The translations under genes were made by a program, and so were the position numbers. A DNA stretch of 64,000 nucleotides from contig CP136066.1 of NCBI GenBank assembly GCA_032622095.1, forward strand, positions 48,582,911-48,646,910, in the 5' to 3' direction. The first letter of the stretch is position 1. Each line of letters starts with the position of its first letter. The DNA comes from Siphonodentalium dalli. Its lineage: Eukaryota; Mollusca; Scaphopoda; Gadilida; Siphonodentaliidae. Positions 5,792 to 62,458 of the stretch are shown one piece after another. The notes under the pieces were generated by a model. That model did not search any database and was not told where the DNA came from. It worked only from the letters and a program-made list of their open reading frames with translations.

Positions 5792-6155
5792 TTAACCCTT
5801 TACCCAACAGAACGCCCAGAAACGCCCTAACAGCCTAAATTATCTTCGGTCTGTCTCAATAAAACCATGGAAATATGGGTATCATTGGAACCGGCTCATT
5901 GAGCACATTGTGATAGTTACAGTTATGCCCTGTGCCAATGCATTCTCTTATATATGCGAGTCGACCATAGGTCGCCTCGCATATATAAGAGAATGCATTG
6001 GCCTAAAAAAAACTTTTTTTTAACACTTTTTACCATTTTTCTTTAATATGTGTTAAGCCAATGCATTCTCTTATATATGCGAGGCGACCTATGGTCGACT
6101 CGCATATATAAGAGAATGCATTGGCACAGGACCGTTCTGTTGGGTAAAGGGTTAA
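5792..6155 (-). mobile_element. TTAA element family A, copy 1
   Basis: TTAA-CCCTTTACCCAACAGAACG at the left and its inverted match at the right. Two 67-nt hairpins lie at 5935-6001 and 6058-6124; the second is the reverse complement of the first. The long subterminal arm (containing ATCTTCGGTCTGTCTCAATA) is on the left, so this copy is reversed relative to 43755. No coding potential beyond chance ORFs through the hairpins. Confidence 0.9.
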
Positions 6156-6444
6156 AGTAAATAGTATTGTACGTCATGTTCTTGTTGTATGCGAAAACCA
6201 GCGGGAGACATATTGGCTCATTCTGTACTCTATGGATGCACTAATACACTTCATTGACTGCCCTCATAACATTCCGCTTTCTTGTTTATCGGCGTGTCGC
6301 AAGATTTTCCGGAATCCTTACGTCCTCTTCTTTTTATGGGTCTATGTAACTGAAGGCGGAGATTCCTTCGGACTGTACACAGGGGGGGGGGTAAACAGGG
6401 GGTAACCAACCCATCTCACATGTTCGAATAGGCAATGTCATACC

Positions 6445-6730
6445 CCAGTCTTGAAATAGTGTGTCTGTCATTTGCATAACGAGGTCCACGTAAAGTGAAT
6501 TTAGCGATGCTATGCTGTGCGGACTATCATCACTAAATTCTGCTTAGGCCTCATCTTCAAGGAAGTATATAACTTCAACTTGGAAACACATAGCAGTTGA
6601 GGCCTCAGCACCCAGAGTGTGCATTTGGTGACGCTAGCCATTCGTGGCGGATAACGTCACTAAATTCACCTTCTGTGGATCTCAATCTGCAAATGACAGA
6701 CACACTATTTCAGAATCATTTCAAGGCTTG
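6445..6730. mobile_element. hAT-like MITE (AATGAGGTCC core), copy 1
   Basis: Ends CCAGTCTTGAAATAGTGTGT and ACACACTATTTC...CAAGGCTTG, flanked by an imperfect 8-bp duplication (GTCATACC / TTCATAAC). It holds two AAATTTAGCGATGCTA-type foldback modules separated by an AGTTGAGGCCTCAGC spacer. Confidence 0.7.
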
Positions 6731-6944
6731 TTCATAACACGAACACGTACGATATTGGATGTCAATTAGGTTTTATACTATTATATTCTTTTGGACAGCT
6801 TCAAAATTTGGACCACTGCTCCGTGGCACTTGTTATTCTCCGGGTTCATGATACCATGCTGGCGGGGTCGACACCCTCGGCTAAAATAATTATAACTTTA
6901 ATAGAATCACATGCTTGGTACCACAATGGAACTAAGCTGACGAT

Positions 6945-7202
6945 TTAACCCTTCCATGACTGGAGCTCCCTGCAAGTTTGCGAAAACCCTGTGCCAATGC
7001 ATTCTCTTTTATATTCGAGTCTCCCATATGAGAGCCTCCCATATATAAAGAGAATTCACTGGCCTAACAATATTTCCATTGATCTTGTTAACCAGTGCAT
7101 TCTCTTATATAATGCAAGGCTCCCTGTGTGAGACTCGCATATATAAGCGAATGCACTGGCACATGATTTTAATGCTGCACCAGCCCAGCATGAAATGGTT
7201 AA
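6945..7202 (+). mobile_element. TTAA element family B, copy 1
   Basis: TTAA-CCCTTCCATGACTGGAGC at the left; right end CAGCATGAAATGGTTAA. Two family-B hairpins with arms CCAATGCATTCTCTT / TATATAAGCGAATGCACTGG and a GAGTCTCCCAT-type loop instead of the GTCGACC loop of family A. Confidence 0.8.
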
Positions 7203-7590
7203 GTTTTACGGTGTCATCCCGGTCTTTGAGCCGAATAACCTCATTTTCTCACACATATGTAATCTCTGCGTGGGGTGTGTTCCATTGATCGGATTCAGAA
7301 CACCGGAAGTTTCCTCCCATAAACTCGAGTATTATCCTTCCCACTTCAAACCCTGGACTGTAAATAGCGCTCATCGACCGCTCTGTGCTTCAGGATTCTA
7401 TCTTTGTTTTACTTTGAAGTACAGATAATTAGTCCCCGTGTGAATGGGTGACAAAGAGCATCAAATTAATTGACAGTGTTTAACTTCGATTATTTTCGTT
7501 CCACATGATTGTGTTGGTACTCGTCGCATGTTATATGTCGTGACCTGTTTTTTTTTAAATACATGTATATAGTATGACTTATTGTGTTAT

Positions 7591-8045
7591 TTAAAGATGC
7601 ATAATCCTAATTAACCCTTCATAATTAATATTTCTTTGGCTTCGGGGGTTAAAAAATATTTGATTCGAGTCGAGGAACCCATCCATCAAAGCTCAGGGTG
7701 ATCAGATATCGATTTTTGAAGTTTGTTATTTCTCGAAATGTGCAATTATTTGTGGCCCAGAAAAAAGTCATCAAACCGCCGGTCTCGGACAAAATTGCGG
7801 ATGAAGATGGATAACTCTAAATATAAAATATTGTGGTAATACGGCCAAATTTCGTGATACTCAAGTGATAGTAGGGCCATATTTCATTGAACAAAATGTT
7901 GATAAATAACACATTTTGGGAATTTTGATACCATAATTGACAGTGGTTAGCATTATTCTGATAACTAAAGCGTATTTTGGAGGAATGTTGCTGTTGTTGT
8001 ATATTGATGATATGGGGACCCTCTGATCGGATTGAGTACCTTTAA
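7591..8045 (+). mobile_element. TTAA element family D, copy 1
   Basis: The left end is degenerate (TTAA-AGATGCATAATCC). The right end CTCTGATCGGATTGAGTACC-TTTAA is intact. The diagnostic core TTTGATTCGAGTCGAGGAAC and the subterminal GTTGTTGT run are present. Confidence 0.8.
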
Positions 8046-8202
8046 TTAAAGCGGCATATTAAAAATGTTCAAGATATGCATTCGATGACACCGTGCACAT
8101 ATAGGGAGAAACAGAAATGTTCGTCGAAGTAATTTTTCTCTTTAATATCAAGAACAAGGCTCGACAAATTATATTTCATAGTTGATAACTGTACTTTGTC
8201 AA

Positions 8203-9215: not shown

Positions 9216-9458
9216 TTAACCCTTCCATGGCTGGAGCTTCCTGAATTTTTTTCGAAAACCCTGTGCATTCTCTTATATATACAGTCGCCCATAGGGCGCC
9301 TTACATATATAAGAGAATGCAATGACCTAACAATATTTACCTTGATCTTGTAAGCCAGTGAATTCTCTTATATATATGCGATGCTCACTGTGGGAGACTC
9401 GCATATATAAGGGAATGCACTGGCACATGATCTTCAATGCTCAGCATGAAAGGGTTGA
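9216..9458 (+). mobile_element. TTAA element family B, copy 2
   Basis: Left end TTAA-CCCTTCCATGGCTGGAGC. Right end CAGCATGAAAGGG-TTGA with a mutated TTAA. Both hairpins are recognisable; the first has lost part of its 5' arm. Confidence 0.75.
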
Positions 9459-9684: not shown

Positions 9685-9711
9685 GACCGACCGACCGACA
9701 GACCGACCGAC
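9685..9711 (+). repeat. (GACC)n microsatellite
   Basis: Six GACC/GACA tetranucleotide units in a row. Confidence 0.85.
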
Positions 9712-10977: not shown

Positions 10978-10980
10978 TGT

Positions 10981-13326: not shown

Positions 13327-13776
13327 TTAAAGGTACTCCACCCGATTCGATGGTCTCCATATCATCAGATTCCAACAACAACATTTTTTTTTAAATGCCG
13401 CTTCAGTTATTAGAATCGATTAATTAACCAAAAATAATATAGTCAAATATAGTATAAAATTGCCCAAAACCTGTTATTTATCAACATTTTGTTCTACGAA
13501 ATTTTGCCGGTTTGTCAAATATCTGACACAAAGAAGTCACTTGATTTTAGAGTTATCCATATTCGTCCGCAAATTTGGTCAGAGACAGTCTTCTCGTCGA
13601 CTTTTACTGGGCCACTAAATATTCGAGGTGGTGAAAAATAATAGATTTTAAAAATCGATATCTGATCACTCTGAAGATTTGATGGGTGGGTTCCTCGACT
13701 CGAATCAAATATTATTTACCCCCGAAGCCAAATAAATAGTAATTGAGGGGTGCTCAATCGGATTGAGTACCTTTAA
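13327..13776 (-). mobile_element. TTAA element family D, copy 2
   Basis: TTAA-AGGTACTCCACCCGATTCG to CGGATTGAGTACCT-TTAA, reversed: the CAACAACAAC run is at the left and GTTCCTCGACTCGAATCAAA at the right. Confidence 0.85.
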
Positions 13777-14370
13777 AAACTAAATCGACCACTGAATACT
13801 ATGCAACATCCCTGCATAAATCCACATAAATTGGATCATATATATGTATATACGAGTAGGTCTGCACCTGTGGTGATGAACATGGTTCAGAGGTGGTTAT
13901 ACTATAAACAGCCTAGTGTTGTATTATTTTATCTCGTATATTTGCCTGTATACACCTGAATATACCCAAAATACAGGCATGTAAGTAGAAATCCAAATTG
14001 GCCACCAAGGTCACGTGACCTCCATAGGGTGGGCAAAGCGGTTACATGTGATCCAACCATATCTCTACTCACCTGTGAAGTTTGAACAAATTATACCCAA
14101 CGATATCTGAGATACACCACATTAACCATATACACCCTCAATATATGTATAGCTGTACAGAATGCGTGGCACTGAGGCTACCGTCTGTGGTGGTGCTTGG
14201 CATCAAAAGAGTTAATAGTAAGTTGCCCGCCTGTGTATGTATACCAATTTATCTAAAGTCACGCATGTTTACTTACCAAAACAATGATGATTAAATGCTA
14301 GAACGGTGTACTTTCTTAATCAAACAACACTTTACTGTTTTGATATACGTTGCCGACTGCCCGTATATAT

Positions 14371-14797
14371 TTAAAGATGCATAATCCGATTAAGCGCCCA
14401 TCAATTACTATTTATTTGGTTTCGGGTAGTAAAAAATATTTGATTTGAGTCGAGGAACCCACCTATCAAAGTTCAGTGTTATTAGATATCGATTTTTGAA
14501 ATCTATCTTTTTTCACCATCCAGACTTTTAGTGGCCGACCAAATTGCGGATGAAGATAGATAACTTTGTGTTGATAATAAGGCTAATTTCGTCGAACAAC
14601 ATATTGATAAATAACACGTTTCGGGAAATTTTATACTATAGTTGACAGTGGTTAGCATTATTTTTGGGCAATTAATCGATTCTGATAAGTGATAACTGAA
14701 GCGGCACTTCGAAAAATTGTGTTGTTGTTGTTGTTGTTGTTGTTGTAATTGGAATCTGATTATATGAGGACCATCGAATCGGATTGAGTACCTTTAA
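14371..14797 (+). mobile_element. TTAA element family D, copy 3
   Basis: Left end TTAA-AGATGCATAATCCGATT, right end CGGATTGAGTACCT-TTAA. It carries the longest GTT repeat of the family (about seven units near 14725-14747). Confidence 0.8.
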
Positions 14798-15418: not shown

Positions 15419-15842
15419 TTAACTCTTCCATGGCGGGAGCTGCGCTGGTGGAGCATTAAAGACCCTGTTCCAATGAATTATCTTATATATGAGTTGACCA
15501 TAGTTCGCCTCGCATATATAAGAAAATGCGTTGGCCTAACCATTTTTATCATTGTTTTTATAAACTTTTTCTTACATTCTTTAATATTTTTTATCATTTT
15601 TCTAATAATTTTTTTCTTACATTCTATAACAATTTTTATAATTTTTGTTGTTACATACTTGAACAATTTGATCAATTTTTCTTATATTCATTAACAATTT
15701 GTTATAATTTGTTTCCATTTTTTCTTACATTTTTTAACAATTATAAAAAATAATATAAAATTTGTTAGGCCAATGCATTTTCTTATATGCGAGGCGACCT
15801 ATGGTCGACTCGCATATATATAAGAGAATGCATTGGCACTTC
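15419..15842. mobile_element. Composite: family B end with a family A-type second hairpin
   Basis: The left end TTAA-CTCTTCCATGGCGGGAGC is family B (reverse orientation). The loops are family A type (GTTGACCATAGTTCGCC; GGCGACCTATGGTCGAC) and the spacer is a 230-bp AT-rich block of repeated TTTTTCTTACATT. No right TTAA end is visible. Flanks at 15338-15402 and 15867-15924 are direct repeats of each other. Confidence 0.6.
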
Positions 15843-15967: not shown

Positions 15968-16424
15968 TTAAAGGTACTCAATCCGAATTAACGCTCGCAA
16001 ATTACTATTTCCTTGGCTTCGCATGGCTTCGGGGGTAAAATATATTTGATTCGAATCGAGGAACCCACCCATCAAAGCTAGCAGTGATCAGATATCGATG
16101 TTTGGAATCTATTATTTAAATTTTAGGTGGCCCAATAAACTGTCGACGAGTAGAACTAATCTGACCAGATAGCGGGTGAAGATCGATAACTCTAAAATCC
16201 AGTGTTTTTTTGTGTCAGATATTTGACAACTGGCAAAAGTTCGTTGAACAAAACGTTGATAAATAACAGGTTTTGAGCAATTTTATAGTATAGTTGACTG
16301 TGGTTAGCATTATTTTTGGGCAATTAATCGATTATGATAACTGAAGCGTATTTTGAAGAAATGTTGTTGTTGTTGTTGTATCTTGATGATATGGGGACCC
16401 TCTGATAGGATTGAGTACCTTTAA
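15968..16424 (+). mobile_element. TTAA element family D, copy 4
   Basis: TTAA-AGGTACTCAATCCGAATT to AGGATTGAGTACCT-TTAA; core TTTGATTCGAATCGAGGAAC; GTTGTTGTTGTTGT near 16365. Confidence 0.85.
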
Positions 16425-18066: not shown

Positions 18067-18531
18067 TTAACCCTTTACCCAACAGTCGGGATTTTTTTTA
18101 CCCTGTGCCAATGCATTCTCTTATATATGCGAGTCGACCATAGGTCGCCTCGCATATATAAGAGAATGCATTGGCCTAACAATTTTTTACAATTTTAATA
18201 ATTTTTTCTTGTATTTTTTAACAATTTTATAATTTCACCCATACAGAGCCCCAGACAAACATGAGCAGACGACACTCTTCTATATGCTTCTATATATGTG
18301 TGGGGCTCCCTCCAGGGTAATGGATGTTTTTTTATTTTATGTCCTAAAAATTGTAAGAAACATTTATTTTTAAAAAATGATAAAAAATTGTTAGGCCAAT
18401 GCATTCTCTTATATATGCGAGGCGACCTATGGTCGACTCGCATATATAAGAGAATGCATTGGCACAGGGTATTTTATGCTGTTGAAGCTTTATTTGGCCG
18501 GTTTTGGCCGTTTTGTTGGGTAAAGGGTTAA
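18067..18531 (+). mobile_element. TTAA element family A, copy 2, variant interior, inserted in LINE
   Basis: CCCTTTACCCAACA ends on TTAA, hairpins at 18108-18174 and 18396-18462. Between them is an interior absent from ordinary A copies (GAGCCCCAGACAAACATGAG near 18245), shared in inverted orientation with the element at 24165. The left arm carries GTCGGGATTTTTTTT, also shared with 24165. Target: the LINE remnant described at 18000-19329. Confidence 0.88.
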
Positions 18532-19329: not shown

Positions 19330-19730
19330 TTAACCCTTTACCCAACAGAACGGCCCTGTGCCAATGCATTCTCTTATATATGCGAGTCGACCATATGTCG
19401 CCTCGCATATATAAGAGAATGCATTGGCTTAACACATTAAAAATTATGAAATTGTTAAAGAATGTAAGAAAAAATGGTAAAAAGTGTTAAAAAAATATTT
19501 TTTTTTAGGCCAATGCATTCTCTTATATATGCGAGGCGACCTATGGTCGACTCGCATATATAAGAGAATGCATTGGCACAGGGCATAACTGTAACTAGCA
19601 CAATGTGGTCAAGGAGCCGGTTCCAATGATATCCATATTTTTATGGTTTTATTGAGACAGACCGAAGATATTTTAGGCTGTTGAAGCTTTATTTGGCCGG
19701 TTTTGGCCGGTTTGTTGGGTAAAGGGTTAA
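19330..19730 (+). mobile_element. TTAA element family A, copy 3
   Basis: Clean TTAA duplications and CCCTTTACCCAACA ends. Hairpins at 19361-19427 (one loop substitution, CCATATGTCG) and 19510-19576. The long arm is on the right. It sits a few bases after the last stop codon of the LINE remnant. Confidence 0.9.
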
Positions 19731-20739: not shown

Positions 20740-21204
20740 TTAAAGGTACTCAATCCGATCAGACGCTCCTAAATTACTATTTCTTTGGCTTCGGGGATAA
20801 AAAATATTTGATTAGAGTCGAGGAACCTACCCATCAACGCTCCGAGTGATCAGATATCGATTTTTGAACTTTATTATTTCTATTGTTTGTGGTCCAATAA
20901 CACGCCGTCAAAAAGGTAGTCTCGGTCAAAATTGCGGATGAAGATGGAGAACTCTAAAATCAAGTGGTTACTATGACCACTTAATTTTAGAGTTATCCAT
21001 CTTCATCCGCAATTTGTCCGTTTGACCTCGTGTGTCTGTGCTAATTATTAGTACACATCTCGAGAAATAAAAAACTTCAAAAATCAATATCTGATCACTC
21101 TGAGCTTTGATGGGTGGGTTCCTCGACTCGAATCAAATATGTTTTACCCCCGAAGCCAAAGAAATAGTAATTTTGGAGCGTCTGATCGGATTGAGTACCT
21201 TTAA
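20740..21204. mobile_element. TTAA element family D, foldback form
   Basis: TTAA-AGGTACTCAATCCGATCAG to CTGATCGGATTGAGTACCT-TTAA. Instead of one left and one right half it has two left halves head to head: TTAGAGTCGAGGAACC at about 20815 and its complement near 21118, meeting at a centre near 20970. Arms are about 230 bp. Confidence 0.85.
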
Positions 21205-24164: not shown

Positions 24165-24622
24165 GTGACCCGCCATATCAAATCCAGTCGTGAGTCGGGA
24201 TTTTTTTACCCTGTGCCAATGCATTCTCTTATATATGCGAGTCGACCATAGGTCGCCTCGCATATATAAGAGAATGCATTGGCCTAACAATTTTTTATCA
24301 TTTTTTTTAAATAAATGTTTCTTACAATTTTTAGGACATAAAATAAAAAAACATCCATTACCCTGCAGGGAGCCCCACACATATATAGAAGCATATAGAA
24401 GAGTGTCGTCTGCTCATGTTTGTCTGGGGCTCTGTATGGGTGAAATTATAAAATTGTTAAAGAATACAAGAAAAAATTATTAAAATTGTAAAAAATTGTT
24501 AGGCCAATGAATTCTCTTATATATGCGAGGCGACCTATGGTCGACTCGCATATATAAGAGAATGCATTGACACAGGGCAAAAAAAAATCCCGACTTACGA
24601 CTGGTTTGATATGGCGGGTGAC
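24165..24622. mobile_element. Family A-like interior with different ends (GTGACCCGCCATATCAAA)
   Basis: About 42-bp inverted termini (GTGACCCGCCATATCAAA... and its near-complement GATATGGCGGGTGAC), not the CCCTTTACCC ends. Inside are the same two hairpins (24216-24282, 24504-24570) and the GAGCCCC interior of copy 18067, but in opposite orientation between the hairpins. The flanking bases are ATAT on both sides; I cannot decide the true target duplication. Confidence 0.8.
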
Positions 24623-40468: not shown

Positions 40469-40494
40469 AAGAGTATAGTACAGTTTAAAGGTAC

Positions 40495-43253: not shown

Positions 43254-43678
43254 CAAGCCTGCAAATAATGTGTCTGCCATTTGCAGAATGAGGTCCCAAG
43301 ATGGTGAATTTAGTGATGCTACCCGCATAGTGGGCTAGCATCACAAAATTCACCCTCATTCAGCTGAGGCCTCATCTTCTGGGAAGTATCTATAGTATCA
43401 AATTAACATTGTTTTTAGTTACGTTCTGTTTCCATATCCCTTTAATAATTTACAGAAGATAAAATGCATAAATGAGGTGACTAATGGGTGAATATCACCA
43501 ACTTCAACTGGAGAACTTAAGTAAGTGTCCAAGTCTCCCATAGCAGCTGAGGCCTAAGCAGAATGAGGTCCCCAGAGGGTGAATTTGGTGATGTTAGCCT
43601 GCCAAGCAGGATAGCGTCACTAAAGTCACCCACTGGGGACCTAATTATGTAAATGTCAGACACACTATTCCAGGCTTG
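43254..43678. mobile_element. hAT-like MITE (AATGAGGTCC core), copy 2, perfect 8-bp duplication
   Basis: Left CAAGCCTGCAAATAATGTG, right CACACTATTCCAGGCTTG, bounded by CTGCTAAC at 43246-43253 and again at 43679-43686. An 8-bp duplication with CA-starting ends fits the hAT superfamily. Non-coding. Confidence 0.85.
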
Positions 43679-43754
43679 CTGCTAACAAAATGATCCAGCA
43701 GAGAAACAACATGAAAAGCCCCAAGTGATACCAGAGATTATCATGATTCATCTG

Positions 43755-44145
43755 TTAACCCTTTACCCAACAGAACGGCCCTGTGCCAATGCATTCTCTT
43801 ATATATGCGAGTCGACCATAGGTCGCCTCGCATATATAAGAGAATGCATTGGCTTAACACATTAAAAATTATAAAATTGTTAAAGAATGTAAGAAAAAAT
43901 GGTAAAAAGTGTTAAAAAAAGTTTTTTTTTAGGCCAATGCATTCTCTTATATATGCGAGGCGACCTATGGTCGACTCGCATATATAAGAGAATGCATTGG
44001 CACAGGGCATAACTGTAACCATCACAATGTGGTCAAGGAGCCGGTTCCAATGATATCCATATTTGTATGGTTTTATTGAGACAGACCCAAGATATTTTAG
44101 GCTGTTGGAAGCTTTATTTGGCCGGTTTGTTGGGTAAAGGGTTAA
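43755..44145 (+). mobile_element. TTAA element family A, copy 4
   Basis: Reference-like copy with hairpins at 43786-43852 and 43934-44000, an AT-rich spacer with GTTAAAGAATGTAAGAAAAA, and the long right arm ending TTGTTGGGTAAAGGG-TTAA. Confidence 0.9.
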
Positions 44146-44348
44146 GTTTCGATTTATAACTTCTTACTTGAACCATCAGCATCCACAGACTATAACACAC
44201 TGCGTTGGAGGATGCACAGATCCCCAGAAAATATTTTTACCCCACCCCCAATAATACTTAGTTCTATAGGATTAAGTATTTATGGGGGTTGGGTAAATTT
44301 TTGTTTTGGGGACCTGTGGGAGGATGCTGTATTATGTAAACATTACTG

Positions 44349-44557
44349 TTAACCCTTTCATGATGGGGCAGCATTAAAGATCCTGTGCCAGTGCATTATC
44401 TAGGGAGCCTTGCATATATAAGAGAATGCATTGGCTTACAAGGCCAAGGTAAATATTGTTAGGCCAATGCATTCTCTTATATATGCGAGGCTCCCTATGG
44501 GAGACTCGCATATGTTAGTGAATGCATTGACTTAGGGTTTTCACAAAAATTTCAGGA
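44349..44557 (-). mobile_element. TTAA element family B, copy 5, one end lost
   Basis: TTAA-CCCTTTCATGATGGGGCAGC at the left, then a deleted first hairpin (near 44389-44436) and a complete second one (near 44465-44530). The far end stops at CAAAAATTTCAGGAAG without its TTAA. Confidence 0.65.
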
Positions 44558-45315
44558 AGATCCATCAAAGAACAGGTCAAGGGTGCCAGTCATTTTATTA
44601 ACAAACATCACCCAATGTAATTGTAAATCAAATGTTTTACTTGAAAATCTGTGTTTTCTGGCATATTTTTCATTGCTCTGACCTTTTATTAAATAAACAT
44701 TAATAATTTTATCACAATTTTTTCAACATTAAGTTGATAAAAAGACTGGCACTGTAACAGTATTGTTTACATAACAAAGGTTTTAACATGCGACATCTCT
44801 TCACTGGAGAGTTATTAATAATAATTATAAGAATAATTTCCTTATTCTTCTTAAGTGATAACGGTTTTACAAACTTTTATGATTTTTCACATTTTCCCAC
44901 TGTGAAAGCCTTTTGTCCCTTTAAAGATACATGACAAGAAACATTCCAACATACAAACAATTCATATACTTAATATAATTCAGCCTCCTGAGAAAACCAA
45001 ACAGAAGGTTCATCAATGTTATGTATGAATACACATGTAGACACCATATTTGAATCAATATATTTAAGTTTTATAGTTATCCTTCCTGAGGATGATCAGG
45101 TAGAAGAAACCTCCACATCCTTCATTGTGTGCATTGCACTCTTGCCAAACTATCTCATCAATAATACATGTATTGTTAAAGATAAAGGGGCCACAATCAC
45201 AACAACAACATATTTTTTATAAAACCCAATTTAAAGACTACGAAATTTTGTGTGTGAATAGAATAGATAAAACTGAAGATCAGGTATATTATTTGTCTCT
45301 AAACTTCTAAAGGCT

Positions 45316-45438
45316 GATGTAGCCAAGTGTAAATCACTGTGATGTAGCCAAGAGTAAATCACTGTGATATAGCCAAGTGTAAATCACTGTGATGTAGCCA
45401 AGAGTAAATCACTGATGCAGCCAAGTGTAAATCACTGT
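45316..45438 (+). repeat. Five 25-bp tandem repeats with alternating variants
   Basis: GATGTAGCCAAG(T/A)GTAAATC plus ACTGT. Units alternate between AAGTGT and AAGAGT, implying a 50-bp dimer amplified. Confidence 0.9.
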
Positions 45439-46092
45439 GAAATCTATTAGTTGAAATTAAATTTGCCTAGATCGAGGGAGCACGCAAGATAGCTATCCCC
45501 TTGGTACACTCTGCGATATTTATGTTCTAAAAGAAAATTAAATAGCCCCATTTTACAGTTCCAGGAATGTCAAACTTCTTATTTCAAAACTGGGTCACAA
45601 TTTTAAAATTCAAAATAAACTTGGAACTTGCAATGTTGTGATTTAATCTTATAACAGACAATTATTACCAATACCAAGTTGGAAGTCAAAATCAATGTAA
45701 AAAATAAATGTTCGTTCTTCATGCTTCAACAAAAACCTTCCTTATAATGTACACTTTTCATTCACGAAGCCAAATCTGTTCAAGTCCATGGTCCCCAATG
45801 ATAGCGAATATAGTATTAACAAATAAAAAAATGCAGAAATGTATATGCCCTATGAATAAACAACTTAAGTCAGGTACATGCATGTGACAACCAAATTCTG
45901 ATGATAGAAAAAAATTATATCAAAGAAATGATAAAATAAGGGGTTTTCATTCACATTCAGCAACCATGGCCAAACAGAATACTGTCAGTCAAAGGGATTT
46001 ATTCCAATCTGCAGATGCACGTACAACTAGACACAGCAAATTTTAAGGTGGACATTTGCTTGCTATTTTCACCCATTGTATTCGCATAGTGC

Positions 46093-46230
46093 TTAAAGAT
46101 GGTCTATCTCTTCCTAACACGTTTTATATAGTTTCCAGGGTATAACATAATATATATGAGTAGAAGAAACCTGTCAGAAGATGCTTCTGTCAATTAATAT
46201 TGATCTTATATAGATATTTTGTTTTATCAT
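46093..46230. repeat. Family I left-end fragment
   Basis: TTAA-AGATGGTCTATCTCTTCC, TATATAGTTTCCAGGGTATA and GATGCTTCTGTCAATTAATA, parallel to 57624. A possible right-half relative lies at 47217-47300 (TTGGTACACTCTGAACGAAT). Confidence 0.5.
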
Positions 46231-46659
46231 ATGACTCAATCATTATTTACGTTGGAAAGTATGTCATAAATCAATTTCATATGAACTACTAGTTCATATC
46301 ACCTTCCGATAATTTGATTGGTTTGTTGACAAAAAGTGTGTTCTGATTGGCTGAATAGCAGCCTGAGCCGAGCCGCATCTCTAAACTAAATGCAGGTCAA
46401 ATTCGTGCGCGTCAATCAACGCGATGCCGAAATTCTCGCAATTATAATCTTGAAATATATAGTTTTGGACATTGTTTTATCACATAATTTGGCCATAAAA
46501 GCAGTTTCATAATTATCGGTAATAGACACGTTTAATATCAGCGCGTGCGATGACGTCACGGCGTTCTTCAAATAACTTGCGATCGCTGTTGTTTATGATT
46601 GTTGTTTTCGATGAATATTTCGCGTTGCTTCGGGTTTATTTGATCATGTGATAAAAGGT

Positions 46660-46801
46660 ATCTCACACTCGTCCTATTTTATACGTAATTTATCAACCTC
46701 GTCCTCTAAATTCTATTTGAGCCTCGGTAAACCTCGGCTCAAATCGAATTTAGTGAACTCGGTTGATAAATTCCGTATACAATAGAAACTCATGTGAGAT
46801 C
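46660..46801. repeat. Foldback, 142 bp
   Basis: ATCTCACACTCGTCCTATTT...AATTCTATTTGAGCC pairs with GGCTCAAATCGAATTTAG...CATGTGAGAT around CTCGGTAAACCTCGG. A second foldback follows at 47041. Confidence 0.75.
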
Positions 46802-47040
46802 CTCTATATACGATAAATAGAATATGTAATTCGTATTTATCTAATAAACATATGATATAATGTCACAAACTGAGAACAGAATAGCGCACTATATCTTCGC
46901 GTGCATATTATTTCTGCTAGTTCACCAGGTGTAATTGGGCTTCCGGTGCAATGAAGCGACGTCACATTAACCTTTTGCTGCCGATGTCATATAGCTATTT
47001 AGTGATTTGTGTGCGTTTTGGACATCATAATCAATAATTC

Positions 47041-47160
47041 GTGTTTCTCTCATATGATATTTATGAAACTCGTCACGAATTTTCAGTTTTCTCTCGCCGG
47101 AGGCTCGAGAAAACTGAAAATTCTTAGACTCGTTTCATAAATATCATATGAGAGAAACAC
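47041..47160. repeat. Foldback, 120 bp, near-perfect
   Basis: GTGTTTCTCTCATATGATAT...TTTTCAGTTTTCTC pairs with GAGAAAACTGAAAATT...GAGAGAAACAC around GCCGGAGGC. Confidence 0.85.
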
Positions 47161-47373
47161 TCATTTCATATCCTCTATATATAATGCAATAAGCAAGTGG
47201 GAGATTTGTTCGTTAATATTTTTAGAATGTTAGATAGAGTTATCCCTCTTGGTACACTCTGAACGAATTAATGAGAGCCGTAAAATATCCCAAATTGATT
47301 GTTCAAATTATATTTTACCAAATTTCTCAGCAATAGAGTTAAGAGTTCTTTGACCATTAAACTCATCCAGCTC

Positions 47374-47763
47374 TTAACCCTTTACCCAACAAACCGGCCA
47401 AATAAAGCTTCAACAGCCTAAAATATCTTCGGTCTGTCTCAATAGAACCATACAAATATGGATATCATTGGAACCGGCTCATTGACCACATTGTGATAGT
47501 TACAGTTATGCCCTGTGCCAATGCATTCTCTTATATATGCGAGTCGACCATAGGTCGCCTCGCATATATAAGAGAATGCATTGGCCTAAAAAAAATCTTT
47601 TTTTAACACTTTTTACCATTTTTTCTTACATTCTATAACAATTTTATAATTTTTAATGTGTTAAGCCAATGCATTCTCTTATATATGCGAGGCGACCTAT
47701 GGTCGACTCGCATATATAAGAGAATGCATTGGCACAGGGCCGTTCTGTTGGGTAAAGGGTTAA
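47374..47763 (-). mobile_element. TTAA element family A, copy 5
   Basis: Intact ends on TTAA; long arm on the left; hairpins at 47518-47584 and 47666-47732, both matching the consensus loop. Confidence 0.9.
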
Positions 47764-48110
47764 TTGAGCTTTCATTTTCAAGTTGTATTAACAAAGTCGT
47801 TAGTATATCAGAAGCAACAAGTCAACAAGATATTAAATTTCCACTGGGAAGAAGACTTATTGAAGAGATAATATCGACTGTTTTGATATTAGTATAGCAG
47901 GGCATTAGAATTAAGTTGAAAAAATCCCTAAACCTGACAAAAAAGAAAAGCATGCAATTAAAAAATATGAATAATGCCTCCTTTTCTTTACGATATTTAA
48001 CCAAGATTAGTGACAAGAAATGAGATCAACTCCAAGCCATGTTGAATACATCATAGCACTTTCATTCCAGAATTTGGTTTTCACAATTCCCTGACAAAAT
48101 GCTACAAGTT
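47764..48110. other. No gene recognised
   Basis: AT-rich unique sequence between two TTAA elements. Confidence 0.5.
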
Positions 48111-48331
48111 TTAACCCTTCCATGACTGGAGCTTCCTGAAATTTTGCGAAAACTCTGTGCCAATGCATTCTCTTATATACGCAAATCTTCCATGGGGGGG
48201 GGGGGGGGGGGGGGCTCGCATATATAAGAGAATACATTGGCCTAACAATATTTACCTTGCTATATAAAAGAATGCACTGGCACATTATGTTTAATGCTGC
48301 ACTAGCACAGCTCCCATCATGAAAGCGTTAA
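48111..48331 (+). mobile_element. TTAA element family B, copy 6, with a 21-G run in the hairpin loop
   Basis: Left TTAA-CCCTTCCATGACTGGAGC, right CCCATCATGAAAGCG-TTAA. The loop of the first hairpin has been replaced by a run of 21 G (48194-48214). The second hairpin is reduced to one arm. Confidence 0.75.
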
Positions 48332-48723
48332 GTAAGTATCGCTACAGATAAGCAGCATACATATAACATCATCATTAACAACATAAATGCGAATGATTAT
48401 AAGAAATAACAGATCTGGAAAATAATGAATCGCTATTAAACAATAATTTGATTGAATTTGATTGGACGAAAAATTGTGACTGAATGAATTTTCTGATACA
48501 AACAATTAAGACACTGTAATTCTACTGGGGATAGATTACAAATTTCTTCTGGAAGTTCGAAATTTGAGATTGAAAAGATGGGATGGAATTCTAAAGTCAC
48601 AAAATTGGGACTCAAAGTTAAGGTAACAGTCCAGAAGGGAGTGGAGTGAGAAAACTGAATTTCTCAGAGCTGGCATTGGCAGGCCCCTAGACTCCTCCAC
48701 AATTTGATGGATCAATTTGCGAG

Positions 48724-49188
48724 TTAACCCTTTCAGTGCCAGGGGCCGATCCCTAATTTACGGTCTGTAAAATCGGCCCTAAAAAAATAAAAAAATGTTT
48801 TGTTTTTTTTGTTGTAAATTATTTTGGGTTGAATTTTGTTTGGGTATGCTTAAGCATGCTATAGCGAATTTAAAAACAAACTGGGGATAAAACCTTAGGG
48901 GCATGTTATAACTCAAATCTATCACCAAGTATTCATAGTAATAATTTTGATGCCCATGAAAAACGTAAGATTCCCTAGCACTAAACCCGACAAAATAAGT
49001 CTGTTAAAGAATATAAGAAAAAATAATTAAATTGTAAAAAATAATAACAAATGATGAAAAATTGTTAGGCCAATGCATTCTCTTATATATGCGAGGCGAC
49101 CTATGGTCGACTCGCATATATAAGAGAATGCATTGGCACAGGCTATATGGGTTGATACAAAAATCGGACCTGGCACTGAAAGGGTTAA
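48724..49188 (+). mobile_element. TTAA element family C, copy 2, carrying a family A hairpin
   Basis: TTAA-CCCTTTCAGTGCCAGGGGCC to GGACCTGGCACTGAAAGGG-TTAA, well-matched inverted ends. A single family A-type hairpin lies at 49070-49136 after the AATATAAGAAAAAAT spacer. It shows the hairpin module inside a family with different termini. Confidence 0.85.
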
Positions 49189-50293
49189 TTAAGCACAATA
49201 TGGGTCAATGGTGTTAGTTTACATGTGACAATTCAATTGTTAATCTAATCCAACCTAGAGCTGACTCATTAAAGACATATTATGGAGTTGTTCGGGTTAG
49301 TCAAATTGATCATTTAGTATTCAGGCGCTATGCCGACTAAGAGGAATGTAGCATTTTAACAACATCGCTGAAAATCTCAAAGAAATCGGCTGTACTACTC
49401 CATACAACCATACAAAACATGGTCTGAACTATTGAACTACTGACTATTATTGGCATATCATTATCATAATGGTTATGCCCAATAAAGCGTCTCGAATAAG
49501 TAGTAAATATTTACATTTGTTCAACCGTTGTCTGAAATAGTAGAATTTTAAACAGTCTTAGTTCATTGCTCCATTCTTCCAATGTTTGGATAATACAGTA
49601 ATGCCCGAAGTAATTGACCACTTAACCACAGCAGAATTATGGGTAATTTTTCAGAATATAGTCGGAAATATGGCTTGTTGCCATTCATCGGAAAGCTCTC
49701 AAGAGCTTTCCAATGAATGGCAACAAGCCATATTTCCTGAAAAATTACCCATAATTCGGTCAATTACTTTGGGCATTACTGTAACTGTTTGTTTTATTCA
49801 ATGATGTAAGTCCACAATATGTCTTTAAAGTGATGTGAAACACTCCGGTTGGGTGACCAAATAGAAATGGATAATAATCTTGCTCAAAGTAGTTATTTTC
49901 ACGAATATTAATCCAAATTTCCAGCACACTCAGCGCTATTTCTTATATATTAATTAAATGCAATGACTCTCGATGGTGAAATCATTCACATTAGTTTATC
50001 GCCGATTGTTGAGTCTCGAATCGAGATGTAAATATTTACAATTATGCGTAGTTCAGACGATGATATCTATGGAGTGGTATGGTCGATTTCTTTGAGATTT
50101 TCGGCGATGTTAGTAAAATGCTACATTCCCACAGTTGGCATAGCGCCTGAGTACTAACTTATCAGTTTCACGCATCCGAACAAGTGCATAATATGTCTTT
50201 AATATTTTCTGTGAAGTAAACTCTGCCAGATCTTAGGATGAGTAGCTCAGCACTAATAAAGCAATACCAGAAATAACATAAAACTTTTCACTG
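49189..50293. other. No gene recognised outside the TA foldback
   Basis: GGCGCTATGCC near 49323 and GGCATAGCGCC near 50138, with TGAGATTTTC/GAAAATCTCA, form a loose long-range inverted repeat around the TA foldback. An older element may enclose it. Confidence 0.45.
49594..49783. mobile_element. TA-flanked foldback MITE, copy 1
   Basis: TA-CAGTAATGCCCGAAGTAAT to GGGCATTACTG-TA. Nearly the whole 190 bp pairs with itself around GAAAGCTCTC|AAGAGCTTTC. The TA duplication suggests a Tc1/mariner-type mover, by inference. Confidence 0.85.
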
Positions 50294-50673
50294 TTAACCC
50301 TTTACCCAACAGAACGGCCCTGTGCCAATGCATTCTCTTATATATGCGAGTCGACCATAGGTCGCCTCGCATATATAAGAGAATGCATTGGCTTAACACA
50401 TTAAAAATTATAAAATTGTTAAAGAATGTAAGAAAAAATGGTAAAAAAAGATTTTTTTTAGGCCAATGCATTCTCTTATATATGCGAGGCGACCTATGGT
50501 CGACTCGCATATATAAGAGAATGCATTGGCACAGGGCATAACTGTAACTATCACAATGTGGTCAAGGAGCCGGTTCCAATGATATCCATATTTGTATGGT
50601 TTTATTGAGACAGACCGAAGATATTTTAGGCTGTTGAAGCTTGTTTTGGCCGGTTTGTTGGGTAAAGGGTTAA
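50294..50673 (+). mobile_element. TTAA element family A, copy 6
   Basis: Intact ends on TTAA; hairpins at 50325-50391 and 50463-50529; the spacer between hairpins is shortened compared with 43755; long arm on the right. Confidence 0.9.
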
Positions 50674-50751
50674 AATTACAATAATGGAAACAATTTGTCA
50701 TGCTTTAGGAATGATACCAACTTGTCTATTATTAGCACTCATGATTCCCCA

Positions 50752-51036
50752 CAGGCCTCAAAATATGGTGCTGTACATTCACAGAATGAGGTTCCCAGAG
50801 GGTGAATTTAGTGACACTACCCCGCATAGCAGGCTAGCATCACTAAATTCACCCTCTATGGATGGCAATCTGATTTGGCCTCACTTTCTCTGGAAAGTAT
50901 CTTTATTATCAAATTATTAACAATCTTTTAGTTTTAGCAATGCAGAATGAGGTCCCCACTGTGCAAGATAGCATCACAAAATTCACCCTCTGGGGACCTC
51001 ATTCTGTAAATGTCCAGCACCATATTTTGAGGTCTG
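50752..51036. mobile_element. hAT-like MITE with the AATGAGGTCC core but different ends
   Basis: Ends CAGGCCTCAAAATATGG / CCATATTTTGAGGTCTG instead of CAAGCCT. Flanks ATTCCCCA / ATTCCAAA are an imperfect 8-bp pair. The interior has the same GGTGAATTTAGTGA foldback modules as copies at 43254 and 53138. Confidence 0.7.
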
Positions 51037-51200
51037 ATTCCAAAACTCAATCATCAAAAATAAAGCCCTACATTTATGTTAATTAAATACGTAAAGCAAA
51101 AACTGTGGATGAAAACATGACGACAATGAGACTCTTGTTTTGATATGTGAGGTGAGCAGGATAAAGTGACACATACATGTATGTTCTCAACTTCATATGT

Positions 51201-51592
51201 TTAACCCTTTACCCAACAAACCGGCCAAATAAAGCTTGAACAGCCTAAATTATCTTCGGTCTGTCTCAATAAAACCATACACATATGGATATCATTGGAA
51301 CCGGCTGCTTGACCACATTGTGATAGTTACAGTTATGCCCTGTGCCAATGCATTATCTTATATATGCGAGTCGACCATAGGTCGCCTCGCATATATAAGA
51401 GAATGCATTGGCCTAAAAAAAATATATTTTTTTAACACTTTTTACCATTTTTTCTTACATTCTTTAATAATTTTATAATTTTTAATGTGTTAAGCCAATG
51501 CATTCTCTTATATATGCGAGGCGACCTATGGTCGACTCGCATATATAAGAGAATGCATTGGCAAAGGGCCCTTCTGTTGGGTAAAGGGTTAA
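51201..51592 (-). mobile_element. TTAA element family A, copy 7
   Basis: Intact ends on TTAA; hairpins at 51345-51411 (one stem substitution, CATTATC) and 51495-51561; long arm on the left. Confidence 0.9.
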
Positions 51593-52136
51593 GATCTGAA
51601 TATTATATATCGGTTGAAAAAGCTTATGAATTCATTCATTCACCAAGCCAATTTTTATCTGAAGAACATATAAAAAAAAAACATGAGAGCTTTATGATAT
51701 TTTGGGGATTTGAAGTGAAGAAACATTAATTTTTTAACAAATTTCCATTTAAACACTGAAGTTCCTAGAATTGAAATAATTCAGGTACGGTGTACCAGCA
51801 AAATTAAGAGATGGTGTCAGTAGTAAACTAGGAATATGAGTAATAAATGAATCCTGCTCATGTGGTGAAGAAAAACATGGATATACGGAACATAAAAATA
51901 ACTACAGTATGCATATATATATGATACAACAAAATCTTTGGTACATAATTATCATGGACTTATCAACCCTAATGACTCTCAAAGCTCAATACTTAATAGC
52001 TTGAAAAATGCATGTGGATAAATATTATTTATAGCTTTATATAACACATACTGAAACCTGATACCATAGCATGATAAGCTAAGGTATGGCCAGGTCTCAA
52101 TACTATAAATCTTTTAAACATGCAACAGGCAGGTTA
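51593..52136. other. Possible LINE-tail relic, otherwise no gene
   Basis: ESCSCGEEKHGY-like coding around 51851-51886 recalls the Cys-rich tail of some non-LTR elements, but the rest does not align by eye. Confidence 0.2.
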
Positions 52137-53459: not shown

Positions 53460-53886
53460 TTAACCCTTTACCAACAAAACGGCCAAAAACGCCCAAATAA
53501 AGCTTCAACAGCCTAAAATATCTTCGGTCTGTCTCAATAAAACCATACAAATATGGATATCATTGGAACCGGTTCATTGACTACATTGTGATGGTTACAG
53601 TTATGCCCTGTGCCAATGCATTCTCTTATATATGCGAGTCGTAGGTCGCCTCGCATATATAAGAGAATGCATTGGCCTAAAAACAATTCTTTTTTTTAAC
53701 ACTTTTTACCATTTTTTCTTACATTCTTTAACAATTTTATAATTTTTTCTACATTCTTTGACAATTTTATCATTTTTAATGTGTTAAGCCACTGCATTCT
53801 CTTATATATGCGAGGCGACCTATGGTCGACTCGCATATATAAGAGAATGCATTGGCACACGGCCGTTCTGTTGGGTAAAGGGTTAA
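53460..53886 (-). mobile_element. TTAA element family A, copy 8
   Basis: Ends on TTAA, with one C lost in the left end (CCCTTTACCAACA). The first hairpin, 53613-53675, has a 4-base loop deletion; the second, 53789-53855, has a stem change (CCACTGC). The spacer carries an internal duplication of TTCTTACATTCTTTAACAAT. Confidence 0.9.
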
Positions 53887-54165: not shown

Positions 54166-54543
54166 TTAACCCTTTACCCAACAAACCGGCCAAATAAAGC
54201 TTCAACAGCCTAAAATATCTTCGGTCTGTCTCAATAGAACCATACAAATATGGATATCATTGGAACCGGCTCCTTGACCACATTGTGATAGTTACAGTTA
54301 TGCCCTGTGCCAATGCATTCTTTTATATATGCGAGTCGACCATAGGTCGCCTCGCATATATAAGAGAATGCATTGGCCTAAAAAAACACTTTTTACCATT
54401 TTTTCTTACATTCTTTAACAATTTTATAATTTTTAATGTGTTAAGCCAATGCATTCTCTTATATATGCGAGGCGACCTATGGTCGACTCGCATATATAAG
54501 AGAATGCATTGGCACAGGGCCGTTCTGTTGGGTAAAGGGTTAA
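54166..54543 (-). mobile_element. TTAA element family A, copy 9
   Basis: Intact ends on TTAA; hairpins at 54310-54376 and 54446-54512; the shortest spacer of the family; long arm on the left. Confidence 0.9.
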
Positions 54544-57256: not shown

Positions 57257-57504
57257 TTAAACCTTCCATAACTGGAGCTTCCTGAACTTTTGTGAAAACC
57301 CTGTGCCAATGCATTCTCCTATAGGGAGCCTTGCATATATATATGAGAATACATTGGCTTAACAATATTTACCTTGACCTTGTAAGCCAGTGCATTCTCT
57401 TATATATGTGAGGCTTCCTATGGGAGACTCGCATATGTAAGAGAATGCACTGGAACAGGATCTTTAATGCTGCACCAGCGCAGCTCCCGTCATGAAAGCG
57501 TTAA
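57257..57504 (+). mobile_element. TTAA element family B, copy 7
   Basis: TTAA-ACCTTCCATAACTGGAGC to CCCGTCATGAAAGCG-TTAA. The first hairpin has lost its GAGTCTCCC half-loop; the second is complete. Confidence 0.8.
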
Positions 57505-58907: not shown

Positions 58908-59124
58908 TACAGTAATGCCCTAAGTAATCGACTCCTTAACCACAGCAGAATTATGGGTAATTTTTTAGGATTTAGTCGGAAATATGGCTTGTTGCCATTC
59001 ATCGGAAATCTCTCAATGAGAGATTTCTGATGAATGGCAACAAGCCATATTTCCGACTAAATCCTGAAAAATTACTCATAATTCTGCTGTAGTTAAGGAG
59101 TCGACTATTTAGAGCATTACTGTA
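58908..59124. mobile_element. TA-flanked foldback MITE, copy 4
   Basis: TA-CAGTAATGCCCTAAGTAAT to AGAGCATTACTG-TA; complete centre with AATCTCTC|AATGAGAGATT. Confidence 0.85.
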
Positions 59125-59580: not shown

Positions 59581-59747
59581 TACAGTAATGCCCAAATTAA
59601 TTGACCACTTAACCACAGCAGAATTATGGGTAATTTTTCAGGATTTAGTCGGAAATATGGCAACAAGCCATATTTCCGACTAAATCCTGAAAAATTACCC
59701 ATAATTCTGCTGTGGTTAAGTGGTCAATTACTTTGGGCATTACTGTA
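59581..59747. mobile_element. TA-flanked foldback MITE, copy 5, loop deleted
   Basis: TA-CAGTAATGCCCAAATTAAT to TTGGGCATTACTG-TA; almost perfect arms meeting at ATATGGC|AACAAGCCATAT. Confidence 0.87.
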
Positions 59748-60622
59748 AGTAGATATTACTCTGCTGGTATATTCCAAACAGAAGCCTGCAGACTAAACTT
59801 ACCTGTCATAGATCTACTTGTCACCAAAAACAGAGACCTGTCAGTGACAGGTAACATTTCGAGCCCTGGTGTACATCGTATAATGTAAAGCCATGCACCA
59901 TTGTATATAGCAACGCTATCTTCACAGAAGACAGAGATTAATTACAGGTAAGATTTCTTTGTAAAGATGCCAGAAACTTGTGCCGTACAAATAATGTGGT
60001 CCCACTCAGCATTTGGTCTGATAATTTGTAAGTTAAAATCCCTCGCCAAAACCAAGTCCATGTGAATAGTAGCAGCACATACATGTATATAGTTTATCAG
60101 GACAAAGTCATATGTAGTTTTAGAATCTATGTATGGTATGGTCTAAGAAATCATTGTGAGCACATTTCGGTGTTTTTGGATACCCAGACTTTTGAACCTG
60201 TAATATTGATGTCAATCAATTATCATCCCTATTTTTAAAGTTAATTTGTCATGAAAAAGGCAGAAGTAACCCTTCCTAGAAAGTTTTATATAGATTCCGG
60301 GGTATAAAATAGTAGATATGAAGTGAGGATAGAGATACCTGTCCCAAAAAGAATTTTTCTCAAATAATAAAACCTTCTATCAGGATGGTAAAAGGTGCTA
60401 TTTTTAGAGCAGGCAACCTGCAGAAACTTTCAGAATGTTGCAAGAGACGCTCTTGTAAGCACCCTCCATCAAGGCAAAATATCATTGCGACTCGGTAGAC
60501 TTCCATCAGCTGTATCAGAAATAAACCATTTTATTGTGCCTTTATAGACAAATAATATACCCTATCTTCAGTTCTGGCTGTGCTTTATTCGCAAACAAGG
60601 TACCGGTATTTGCAATGTAGTC
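59748..60622. other. No gene recognised
   Basis: AT-rich. 60230-60360 (AGTTTTATATAGATTCCGGG, GGTATAAAATAGTAGATATG) resembles family I left-end sequence, much decayed. Confidence 0.45.
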
Positions 60623-61275
60623 TTAAAGGGGTACTGTACACAGAGATAGGCAATTTTTTGTTTTACTCCCATTGAAATAACTTTCAAGTTAGATTGTGTA
60701 CGTGTTATATGAGTTTCGTATAAACCTAATTTAGCGAAGAAAATATTGATCTTGGAAAGAAAAATATTACGATTTCAAACTACGCGCCATGTTTTTGACC
60801 TTCACCGGAGAAGACGCAGATCTCAGGAAGAACCAGAAGTTCATTGCTCACAGCTTCGATTGATGCATTCAATCTCTTCCATCAAACAATCTCACTCCCT
60901 ATAAAAGTACTTGACGCTTTATGACTCGTGTTTCTTTCTCCTTTTTTCAGAATCGGTTATAACGGGCCTTCCTTTTGCAGGTAACATGTTTTGTTTTCAA
61001 CTCAATAATGTTCTCGAAAGGTTGTCAATAAAAGACACGCAGCAGATGCGATTTCAAGAACGGTAACTCGTAATGGCATAATTCGCCATTTTATGACTCC
61101 AGCCATAAATGAATTTATATTAAATAATTCAATTTTACTTTTACGATAGCCTGTTAACCGGAACGTTTTGAGTAGACATCGTCGACTCAAATTAGTTATT
61201 TTATAATATAATATTCATATTAGATCGCTATTGTCACTGGGAATTTATTGAAATTGGTGTACAGTACCCCTTTAA
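60623..61275. mobile_element. TTAA element family G
   Basis: TTAA-AGGGGTACTGTACACAG at the left, GGTGTACAGTACCCCT-TTAA at the right, giving about 15-bp inverted ends. The 650-bp interior has no recognisable protein. Confidence 0.8.
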
Positions 61276-61800
61276 AATCAGGTTTTATAAATATTATGCT
61301 GTTGTTGTTGTAATTGTGGCATTAATAAAGATAATTTTATAGTATACCAGTAGGCAGGGCTAAATTTAACTGGATTCACATCGCAATTTGCAATATGCTA
61401 ACCAATTTACAATGAAAAACATCATGTGTTGGTAGGGAATGTTATACAAATTAAAAAAATTAAATCGACCCCTGATTAGGTGTCATGTGATAGATCAAAG
61501 ATTTTTGTGAACCTAACGTATGTTCTCAAAACATTGAAATCGCCAATCTTAGTACCGGTATCGAGAATACATTTTCCCTGAAATGTGCAGACAATGACCA
61601 TAAAAGCTACAGTATGTGTACTCGTGTACACACAGGTTATGGAAGCCAAACATTTTTTAAACAAAACATTGCAGGTATTCTAATTGTTTATCAGCTTATT
61701 TGACTGAGTTTCACCCTCTGTACTCTGATCTGCCAAGTTAAGTTGATGTCATGATTTACATTAGTTTTACCAAAATCATTACTCGCCCTAGTTTGACAAT
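61276..61800. other. No gene recognised
   Basis: A block near 61355-61445 (GGGCTAAATTTAACTGGATT, TTGGTAGGGAATG) also occurs inverted near 13200-13290, so part of this is a dispersed repeat. Confidence 0.45.
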
Positions 61801-61965
61801 TTAACCCTTCCATGACTGGAGCTTCATGAAATTTTGCACAAAAAAACCTGTACCAATGCATTCTCTTATATATGCAAGTCTCCCACAGGAAGTCTCGCAG
61901 ATACAAGAGAATGCATTGGCCTAACAATATTTACCTTGACCTTGTAAGCCAGTGCATTCACATCA
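61801..61965 (+). mobile_element. TTAA element family B, copy 8, truncated
   Basis: TTAA-CCCTTCCATGACTGGAGC and one full hairpin (near 61854-61920). It breaks off inside the first arm of the second hairpin at CAGTGCATTCA. Confidence 0.7.
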
Positions 61966-62057
61966 TTAAATTTGCCGCGGGACATTTTTCCTAATTTCGA
62001 TGGTTTGTTAATATATTTCAACACTAATACTATTAATGGCAGATCAGAGTATATGGA

Positions 62058-62458
62058 TTAACCCTTTACCCAACAAACCGGCCAAAACCGGCCATATAAA
62101 GCTTCAACAGCCTAAAATATCTTCGGTCTGTCTCAATAGAACCATACGAATATGGATATCATTGGAACCGGCTCCTTGACCACATTGTGATAGTTACAGT
62201 TATGCCCTGTGCCAATGCATTCTCTTATATATGCGAGTCGACCATAGGTCGCCTCGCATATATAAGAGAATGCATTGGCCTAAAAAAAAATCTTTTTTTA
62301 ACACTTTTTACCCTTTTTTCTTAAATTCTTTAACAATTTTATAATTTTTAAAATGTTAAGCCAATGCATTCTCTTATATATGCGAGGCGACCTATGGTCG
62401 ACTCGCATATATAAGATAATGCATTGGCACAGGGCCCTTCTGTTGGGTAAAGGGTTAA
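62058..62458 (-). mobile_element. TTAA element family A, copy 10, downstream of the zinc-finger gene
   Basis: Intact ends on TTAA; hairpins at 62212-62278 and 62361-62427 (one stem change, AAGATAATG). It lies about 310 bp past the stop codon of the zinc-finger gene, so it could fall inside its 3' UTR. Confidence 0.9.

Follow-up and report, generated by a model that had tools for sequence, protein, structure and literature searches.

A conserved 67-nt palindromic core shared by miniature transposons with different ends in a scaphopod genome

Miniature inverted-repeat transposable elements (MITEs) can form composite or mosaic families, in which the interior is shared and the ends have been exchanged. 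A 64,000-nt stretch of the Siphonodentalium dalli genome (C6:48582911-48646910, coordinates 1-64,000, hereafter the window; 2.23 Gb in nine contigs) contains a clan of such elements, with the differences that the joint is an identical palindrome of 67 nt carrying almost no inherited variation, and that both kinds of recombinant can be counted at tens of dispersed places. With piggyBac-type MITEs the clan shares TTAA at both ends, ends starting with CCC (families A, B and C) and imperfect palindromes near the ends. The piggyBac repeat is 19 bp long, whereas the palindrome here spans 67 nt; the same palindrome moreover lies under different ends, and one family (G) does not duplicate TTAA. In piggyBac and piggyBat, palindromic subterminal sites are bound by CRD dimers, according to PMC7351741 and PMC11707139. 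Bacterial REPINs, as PMC3116915 describes them, are alike in having two conserved inverted palindromic units, a less conserved spacer, compensatory changes and lone decayed copies, and are proposed by their authors to move as a doublet via the RAYT tyrosine transposase. The elements described here differ: families A, B, C and G are each bounded by terminal repeats, with flanks of the TTAA or ATAT type. Because of these ends and target duplications we have not filed them as REPINs, and the likeness is one of architecture only. Among the papers listed for mosaic and palindromic MITEs, titles and abstract openings cover piggyBac, REP/REPIN and palindrome work and do not describe this clan. Four sequence fragments were found in no paper of the literature collection searched, a result that says nothing beyond that collection. 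The clan consists of modular MITEs with a conserved palindromic core.

The explanation we favour, and consider on balance probable, is that the palindrome has two roles: elements need it in cis in order to spread, and modules are exchanged across it. The window would then sample a clan of short non-autonomous DNA transposons made of exchangeable modules, each element being a family-specific pair of ends around a shared core. The palindrome may act in cis for efficient mobilisation or amplification, and copies with a damaged hairpin would leave few descendants. Ends and interiors would be swapped at the hairpin, since no other identical stretch shared by the families is as long and palindromes are prone to breakage. 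For the TTAA families its most likely role would be as a subterminal palindromic site to which a piggyBac-type transposase binds through its dimeric C-terminal domain; family G would require another factor, or one common to all the families. The system bears on two questions: how MITEs that encode nothing become so numerous, and how MITE families acquire new ends. A single assembled genome offers an identical internal module under several ends, countable recombinants and a contrast between private decay and inherited constancy, which makes the functionality of a MITE interior directly testable. If the hairpin is needed, this would be a cis requirement across families with differing target duplications, unpredicted by a single transposase recognising the ends.

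The 67-mer at window positions 49070-49136 served as the BLAST query. Folded as DNA it reaches -35.6 kcal/mol (z -15.9), and none of 200 shuffles was equally stable. Within the window 41 hairpin-like stretches were recovered, partial ones included. Sixteen are identical over 67 nt, five further stretches carry one substitution, and the hairpin at 24504-24570 carries two (one within the BLAST match, one at the last base). Full-length stretches (63-67 nt) of at least 92.7% identity number 24; together with 15470-15534, at 88% identity, they account for the approximately 25 A-type hairpins counted in a first-pass annotation of the window. A search of both strands of the genome gave 89,301 exact copies of the 67-mer and no match to its letters in backward order. 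A pattern search of the genome found hairpins with another tip at 8,345 places, where the palindromic pattern scores every place once per strand; those listed are mostly of the family B type or near it. Among the 141 exact hairpins in the window and in loci fetched from the genome (L numbers; some loci overlap), all point the same way and none is reversed. Their flanks are standard in 133 cases and have one changed flanking base in eight. The G-A mismatch is retained in all 141, although by exactness it is part of the match itself. The 26-nt stem had no exact match in a viral contig collection.

That families share a hairpin module, as the first-pass annotation observed, is clear, and the shared piece extends past the hairpin. 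The core comprises CCCTGTG, the 67-nt hairpin, TTAGG or TTAAG, and part of an A+T-rich strip, and is common to four end types: A, B and C, which are TTAA families with ends TTAACCCTT..., and G, with ends GTGACCCGCC... It is usually present twice per element, inverted, and once in family C. Family A elements (approximately 365-425 bp) run from an 18-nt end that includes TTAA through a left subterminal region of about 120 nt, CCCTGTG, the hairpin, an A+T-rich spacer, the inverted hairpin, CACAGGG and a short right subterminal region to the second end. Family B is shorter than A and carries the sister hairpins reported earlier, typically GCGAGGCTCCCTATGGGAGACTCGC; family C has a single hairpin adjoining its right end, and family G has two around a longer interior. 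The features of the window are as follows.

5792-6155, plus strand: family A MITE with TTAACCCTTTACCCAACA ends; hairpins 5935-6001 and 6058-6124
19330-19730, minus strand: family A MITE; hairpins 19361-19427 and 19510-19576
43755-44145, minus strand: family A MITE; hairpins 43786-43852 and 43934-44000
47374-47763, plus strand: family A MITE, reference copy for the alignments; hairpins 47518-47584 and 47666-47732
50294-50673, minus strand: family A MITE; hairpins 50325-50391 and 50463-50529
51201-51592, plus strand: family A MITE; hairpins 51345-51411 and 51495-51561
53460-53886, plus strand: family A MITE; hairpins 53613-53675 (4-nt deletion) and 53789-53855
54166-54543, plus strand: family A MITE; hairpins 54310-54376 and 54446-54512
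62058-62458, plus strand: family A MITE; hairpins 62212-62278 and 62361-62427
18067-18531, plus strand: mosaic with A terminal repeats, G subterminal region and G interior; hairpins 18108-18174 and 18396-18462
24165-24622, plus strand: family G MITE with ends GTGACCCGCC and GTCACCCGCC, flanked by ATAT; hairpins 24216-24282 and 24504-24570
48724-49188, plus strand: family C MITE with ends TTAACCCTTTCAGTGCCAGG; single hairpin 49070-49136
49070-49136, plus strand: the 67-nt query hairpin; 26 bp, G-A mismatch, 5 bp, 3-nt loop
6945-7202, plus strand: family B MITE with left end TTAACCCTTCCATGACTGG and right end TTAACCATTTCATGCTGGG; sister hairpins 6994-7062 and 7092-7159; ends placed by eye
9216-9458, plus strand: family B copy whose right end is TTGA and not TTAA; sister hairpins at about 9264-9324 and 9355-9423; ends placed by eye
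48111-48331, plus strand: family B copy with degraded hairpins, 48160-48240 and 48261-48280
57387-57453, plus strand: family B hairpin with a degraded partner, 57306-57357
15419-15836, plus strand: composite with a B-type left end and a long A+T-rich interior; A-type hairpins 15470-15534 and 15770-15836; drawn here as far as the second hairpin, with no right end defined

The hairpin is thus present in the 24165 element, once in family C and in the 15419 composite, as had been noted. The nine aligned family A elements of the window have two hairpins each, in reverse-complement orientation. The exact A end TTAACCCTTTACCCAACA occurs 91,621 times in the genome, a 26-nt G end 18,051 times and a 26-nt C end 6,501 times. 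In the window the search recovered elements with TTAA at both ends, but TTAA itself was part of the search key there and in the genome count of A ends. An independent check came from family C loci fetched by their hairpin: all nine with a readable right end (L066, L069, L081, L084, L087, L088, L090, L091 and L092) end in TTAA. Of 15 two-ended family G loci, two of which are one insertion in a duplicated segment, 11 have the same four bases on both sides (ten ATAT, one AATT) and none has a TTAA duplication, so the target duplication of family G is not TTAA.

Evidence for a constraint on the hairpin comes from separating mutations by age. We classed a substitution found in one copy as private, and so mostly post-insertion, and one found in two or more copies as shared, inherited from a source. 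Selection of family A copies relied on the ends and ignored the hairpins. It gave 30 copies in the first 6.2 Mb of contig 1 and eight in the window; L022 was dropped as a duplicate, leaving 37. Of 55 planned A regions 40 were obtained, 30 with both ends exact, which were aligned, and ten with one exact end, which were read only; from the window, the alignment did not include 18067 and 53460. Because the exact terminal inverted repeat (TIR) was the selection key, TIR conservation is uninterpretable. In all families the loci outside the window lie on a single contig, within its first 13 Mb, and the p values assume independent variants. Private substitutions in family A are as frequent in the hairpins (31, 6.7/kb) as in the 119-nt left subterminal region (34, 7.9/kb; p 0.53), whereas shared variants total one across 134 hairpin columns and 15 across 119 left-subterminal columns (p 0.003). 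Ten hairpin deletions of at least 5 nt, each seen once, are spread over eight of the 37 copies. Since these eight independent copies have lost part of a hairpin, the earlier claim that every A copy has two holds for the window and not for the genome. A candidate lineage of spreading copies with a deleted hairpin, L021 plus L022, was rejected: their flanks are shared and they represent one insertion in a duplicated segment.

Families G and C were compared in the same way. The 13 G copies comprised the two-ended loci L097-L111, without L099 (the L098 insertion) and the truncated L108 and L111, plus the 24165 element; L107, with one truncated hairpin, was kept, and L112-L116 were excluded. Their hairpins hold 27 private variants and one shared, against 68 and 46 elsewhere (p 8e-5), and the private rates of hairpin and remainder do not differ (p 0.32). 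For family C (19 copies: 20 loci without L125 and L129, whose hairpins are mostly gone, plus 48724) the counts are 16 private and three shared in the hairpin against 55 and 55 elsewhere (p 0.006), with p 0.15 for the private rates. Between A and G the majority hairpin differs at none of 67 positions, while the adjoining A+T-rich strip differs at nine of 63 aligned sites, plus gaps. Resting copies decay freely while spreading lineages keep the hairpin. Since hairpins of resting copies collect private mutations roughly as fast as their surroundings, a process that goes on homogenising every copy is excluded, and repair between copies or arms as the agent keeping resting copies uniform was rejected on the private rates and the fixed polarity.

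The stem itself points in the same direction. We aligned nine old B hairpins with one A hairpin and one chimera; the set leaves aside further B hairpins from the window, among them those at 9264 and 9355 and the degraded ones. Of its cells 89.9% were paired, compared with 27-54% when the partners were slid. None of 500 shuffles reached either the covariation score or the count of cells showing two-sided changes. Four pairs changed on both sides. One, close to the base, went from A-T to G-C; two lie at the tip and distinguish A from B; the fourth is in mid-stem. Our reading is that the A and B hairpins diverged in sequence with the palindrome probably retained.

Exchange between families can be seen directly. 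The element at 18067 joins A ends to a G subterminal region and a G interior, and its junction between A TIR and G subterminal sequence has 75 exact copies, found on all nine contigs. G sequence outside an exact hairpin with A sequence inside occurs at 44 places in the genome, 28 of which coincide, by eye, with places of the 75 junctions; the reverse type, with A outside and the start of G-type sequence inside, occurs at 38. We read ten loci from each of these two sets. In the first, nine are clear mosaics with an A end followed by G subterminal sequence, the hairpin and an A interior; they lie in differing flanking DNA and show at least three versions of the junction, and the tenth (L152) lacks the A end. 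Since A-ended mosaics occupy different sites, some were mobile after forming. In the second set, five loci (L156-L160) have an unmistakable G interior; in the other five the interior is short and A+T-rich and may be a variant of A. L158 has a left end of type A, a right end of type G and flanks that do not match, which is what recombination between two insertions would produce. In L096, G sequence lies outside and A sequence inside, together with an A subterminal region, and in the 15419 composite a B end is joined to A-type hairpins. Breakpoints fall where families share sequence, and the mosaics therefore do not mark the hairpin as an exchange hot spot. The first-pass annotation had offered exchange and function as alternatives and set against them the outcome of hairpins no more conserved than the rest of their elements. 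Exchange is supported directly, by the junctions of both directions counted at these 75, 44 and 38 places, and fails as a process that keeps all copies uniform. Function gains indirect support, with inherited hairpin variants depleted and private mutation not significantly so; hairpins are no more conserved than their surroundings in respect of post-insertion mutation, but are more conserved in respect of inherited variants.

A number of observations weigh against a required cis element. In the covariation test, the four two-sided pairs were matched by 92 of 500 shuffles and the further pair types by 250 of 500. The 26-nt subterminal region of family C (six private, one shared) behaves as its hairpin does (16 and three), and the remaining C control is mostly A+T-rich, so that the contrast in this family rests on such sequence. 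Removing rows without a full hairpin from the G and C sets favours intact hairpins. The A+T-rich strips of C and G differ at one of 49 aligned sites, and because they are nearly identical the C-G hairpin identity proves little. Family C spreads with one hairpin. Family G, under the same constraint, has another target duplication, so a site for piggyBac alone cannot be the whole answer. The search for machinery adds to these points. At least 128 piggyBac transposase matches are listed in the genome, many without stops and some loci giving two. Among the 20 piggyBac loci fetched and read, none contains the hairpin and none a full A, B or C end; short weak matches to the A, B, C and G elements reach E 0.003 at best. 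The hairpin as a part of piggyBac loci was rejected on this 0/20 result, and with matches this weak no transposase is tied to it. The 24-mer of the A left subterminal region without the core was found at one place, by a pattern that catches about a quarter of unrelated continuations; with this single place no autonomous A partner was found. The 20 loci, L001-L020, hold apparently intact piggyBac transposases of several families. Some of these loci have TTAACCCTTTA or TTAACACGTTGAGTGCC at their candidate ends, and TTAACACGTTGAGTGCC resembles the family C end.

It is possible, with a lower probability, that exchange explains the pattern without function. Recombination or gene conversion would copy one hairpin version among co-active source elements, and the palindrome would be just a break-prone stretch of homology. 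Recombinants in both directions fit this explanation, and many palindromes are fragile sites, as stated in PMC7999016. Loci that carry a Bcl-2 gene fit it as well. L115 (C1:4495945-4497748) and L116 are longer G-ended elements with a Bcl-2-like frame. The frame at L116:566-1099 belongs to the Bcl-2 family (Pfam PF00452, E 1.7e-13), with Bcl-xL as the best PDB sequence match (E 1.4e-8); that of L115 has a stop inside the matched stretch. With 153 matches the gene is carried by a high-copy repeat on all nine contigs, and most of the best 100 matches span most of the protein without an in-frame stop. Many copies form head-to-head inverted pairs with starts approximately 850 bp apart; one such pair lies at C6:48758921-48760305, about 112 kb beyond the window. 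In all eight loci read (L115, L116 and L137-L142) inverted half hairpins flank the gene, each departing from the standard sequence at the tip or a few nucleotides from it, which suggests, from these eight loci, that the interior may be replaceable through breakage near the hairpin tip. L137:370-5889 (about 5.5 kb) and L139:210-4239 (about 4.0 kb) are almost perfect palindromes with 97% arms, each containing two inverted Bcl-2 frames. L137 has ends TGATGATACC and lies within a family B element, where GCCAAT seems, by eye, to have been duplicated as a 6-bp target site; it also has two further frames, zinc-finger-like/poly-Q, named by eye. The literature searched on Bcl-2 genes in transposons held nothing relevant; the papers listed in the broader set were mostly Bcl-2 reviews and so uninformative here. 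Against exchange as the sole cause, resting copies show no homogenisation, since in none of A, G and C do private substitutions differ significantly between hairpin and remainder, and copying between arms or orientations should erase both the mismatch and the polarity that the 141 exact hairpins keep. Because every hairpin examined has kept its polarity and the two sides of pairs changed together between A and B, we favour a need for the hairpin over exchange among sources.

A more speculative and rather doubtful extension is that evolution acts on the hairpin core as a unit in its own right, which would make it a eukaryotic counterpart of the REPIN: a palindromic module persisting by a change of vehicle and selected because it promotes amplification, whichever transposase is at work. 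Breakage and rejoining within the hairpin would let the core acquire unrelated transposon ends (the piggyBac-like TTAA ends, the ATAT-flanked G ends) and cargo such as the Bcl-2 gene.

We consider it unlikely that the contrast is an artefact of a young burst, in which sources carrying the hairpin by descent expanded recently and the missing variants reflect chance and alignment noise in A+T-rich sequence. Family A is indeed young, with a private divergence of 0.7-0.8% in hairpin and left subterminal region; the G and C contrasts derive partly from A+T-rich, gap-prone sequence, the samples are small and of narrow origin outside the window, and the near identity of the C and G strips is as this explanation would have it. 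The contrast in family A (one shared variant against 15), however, uses a largely non-repetitive 119-nt control, and the divergence of the A and G strips beside an unchanged hairpin is also difficult to reconcile with it. Least probable of all, and by some distance from likely, is a hairpin transcribed into small RNAs or another structured RNA that aids the elements or is used by the host: the 31-bp stem, the two-sided A/B changes and the kept mismatch would suit a processed RNA, but no Rfam family reached the gathering score in window 43000-51700, on which ground a known structured RNA was rejected, and the 45 weaker matches (E up to 0.1), scattered over many microRNA models, are expected of any long inverted repeat.

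Further repeats were seen in and beyond the window. Another TTAA family, with ends like TTAAAGGTACTCAATCCGAT, occupies window positions 13327-14797, 15968-16424, 20740-21204 and 40485-41605; some copies contain long inverted repeats, and none matches the hairpin. Long inverted repeats with 94-99% complementary arms 1-5 nt apart, without a match to the 67-mer, lie at 58908-59124, 59581-59747 and 62505-62727. On contig 1, matches within C1:735512-786277 and C1:825855-915884 are spaced at about 14.5 kb and 11.2 kb, and judged from this spacing they look like tandem arrays of MITE-containing segments. In L107 (C1:12491684-12492167), and in the left flank of L108, a family G element is inserted at an ATAT run in the hairpin stem of another element, and hairpins may be favoured insertion targets.

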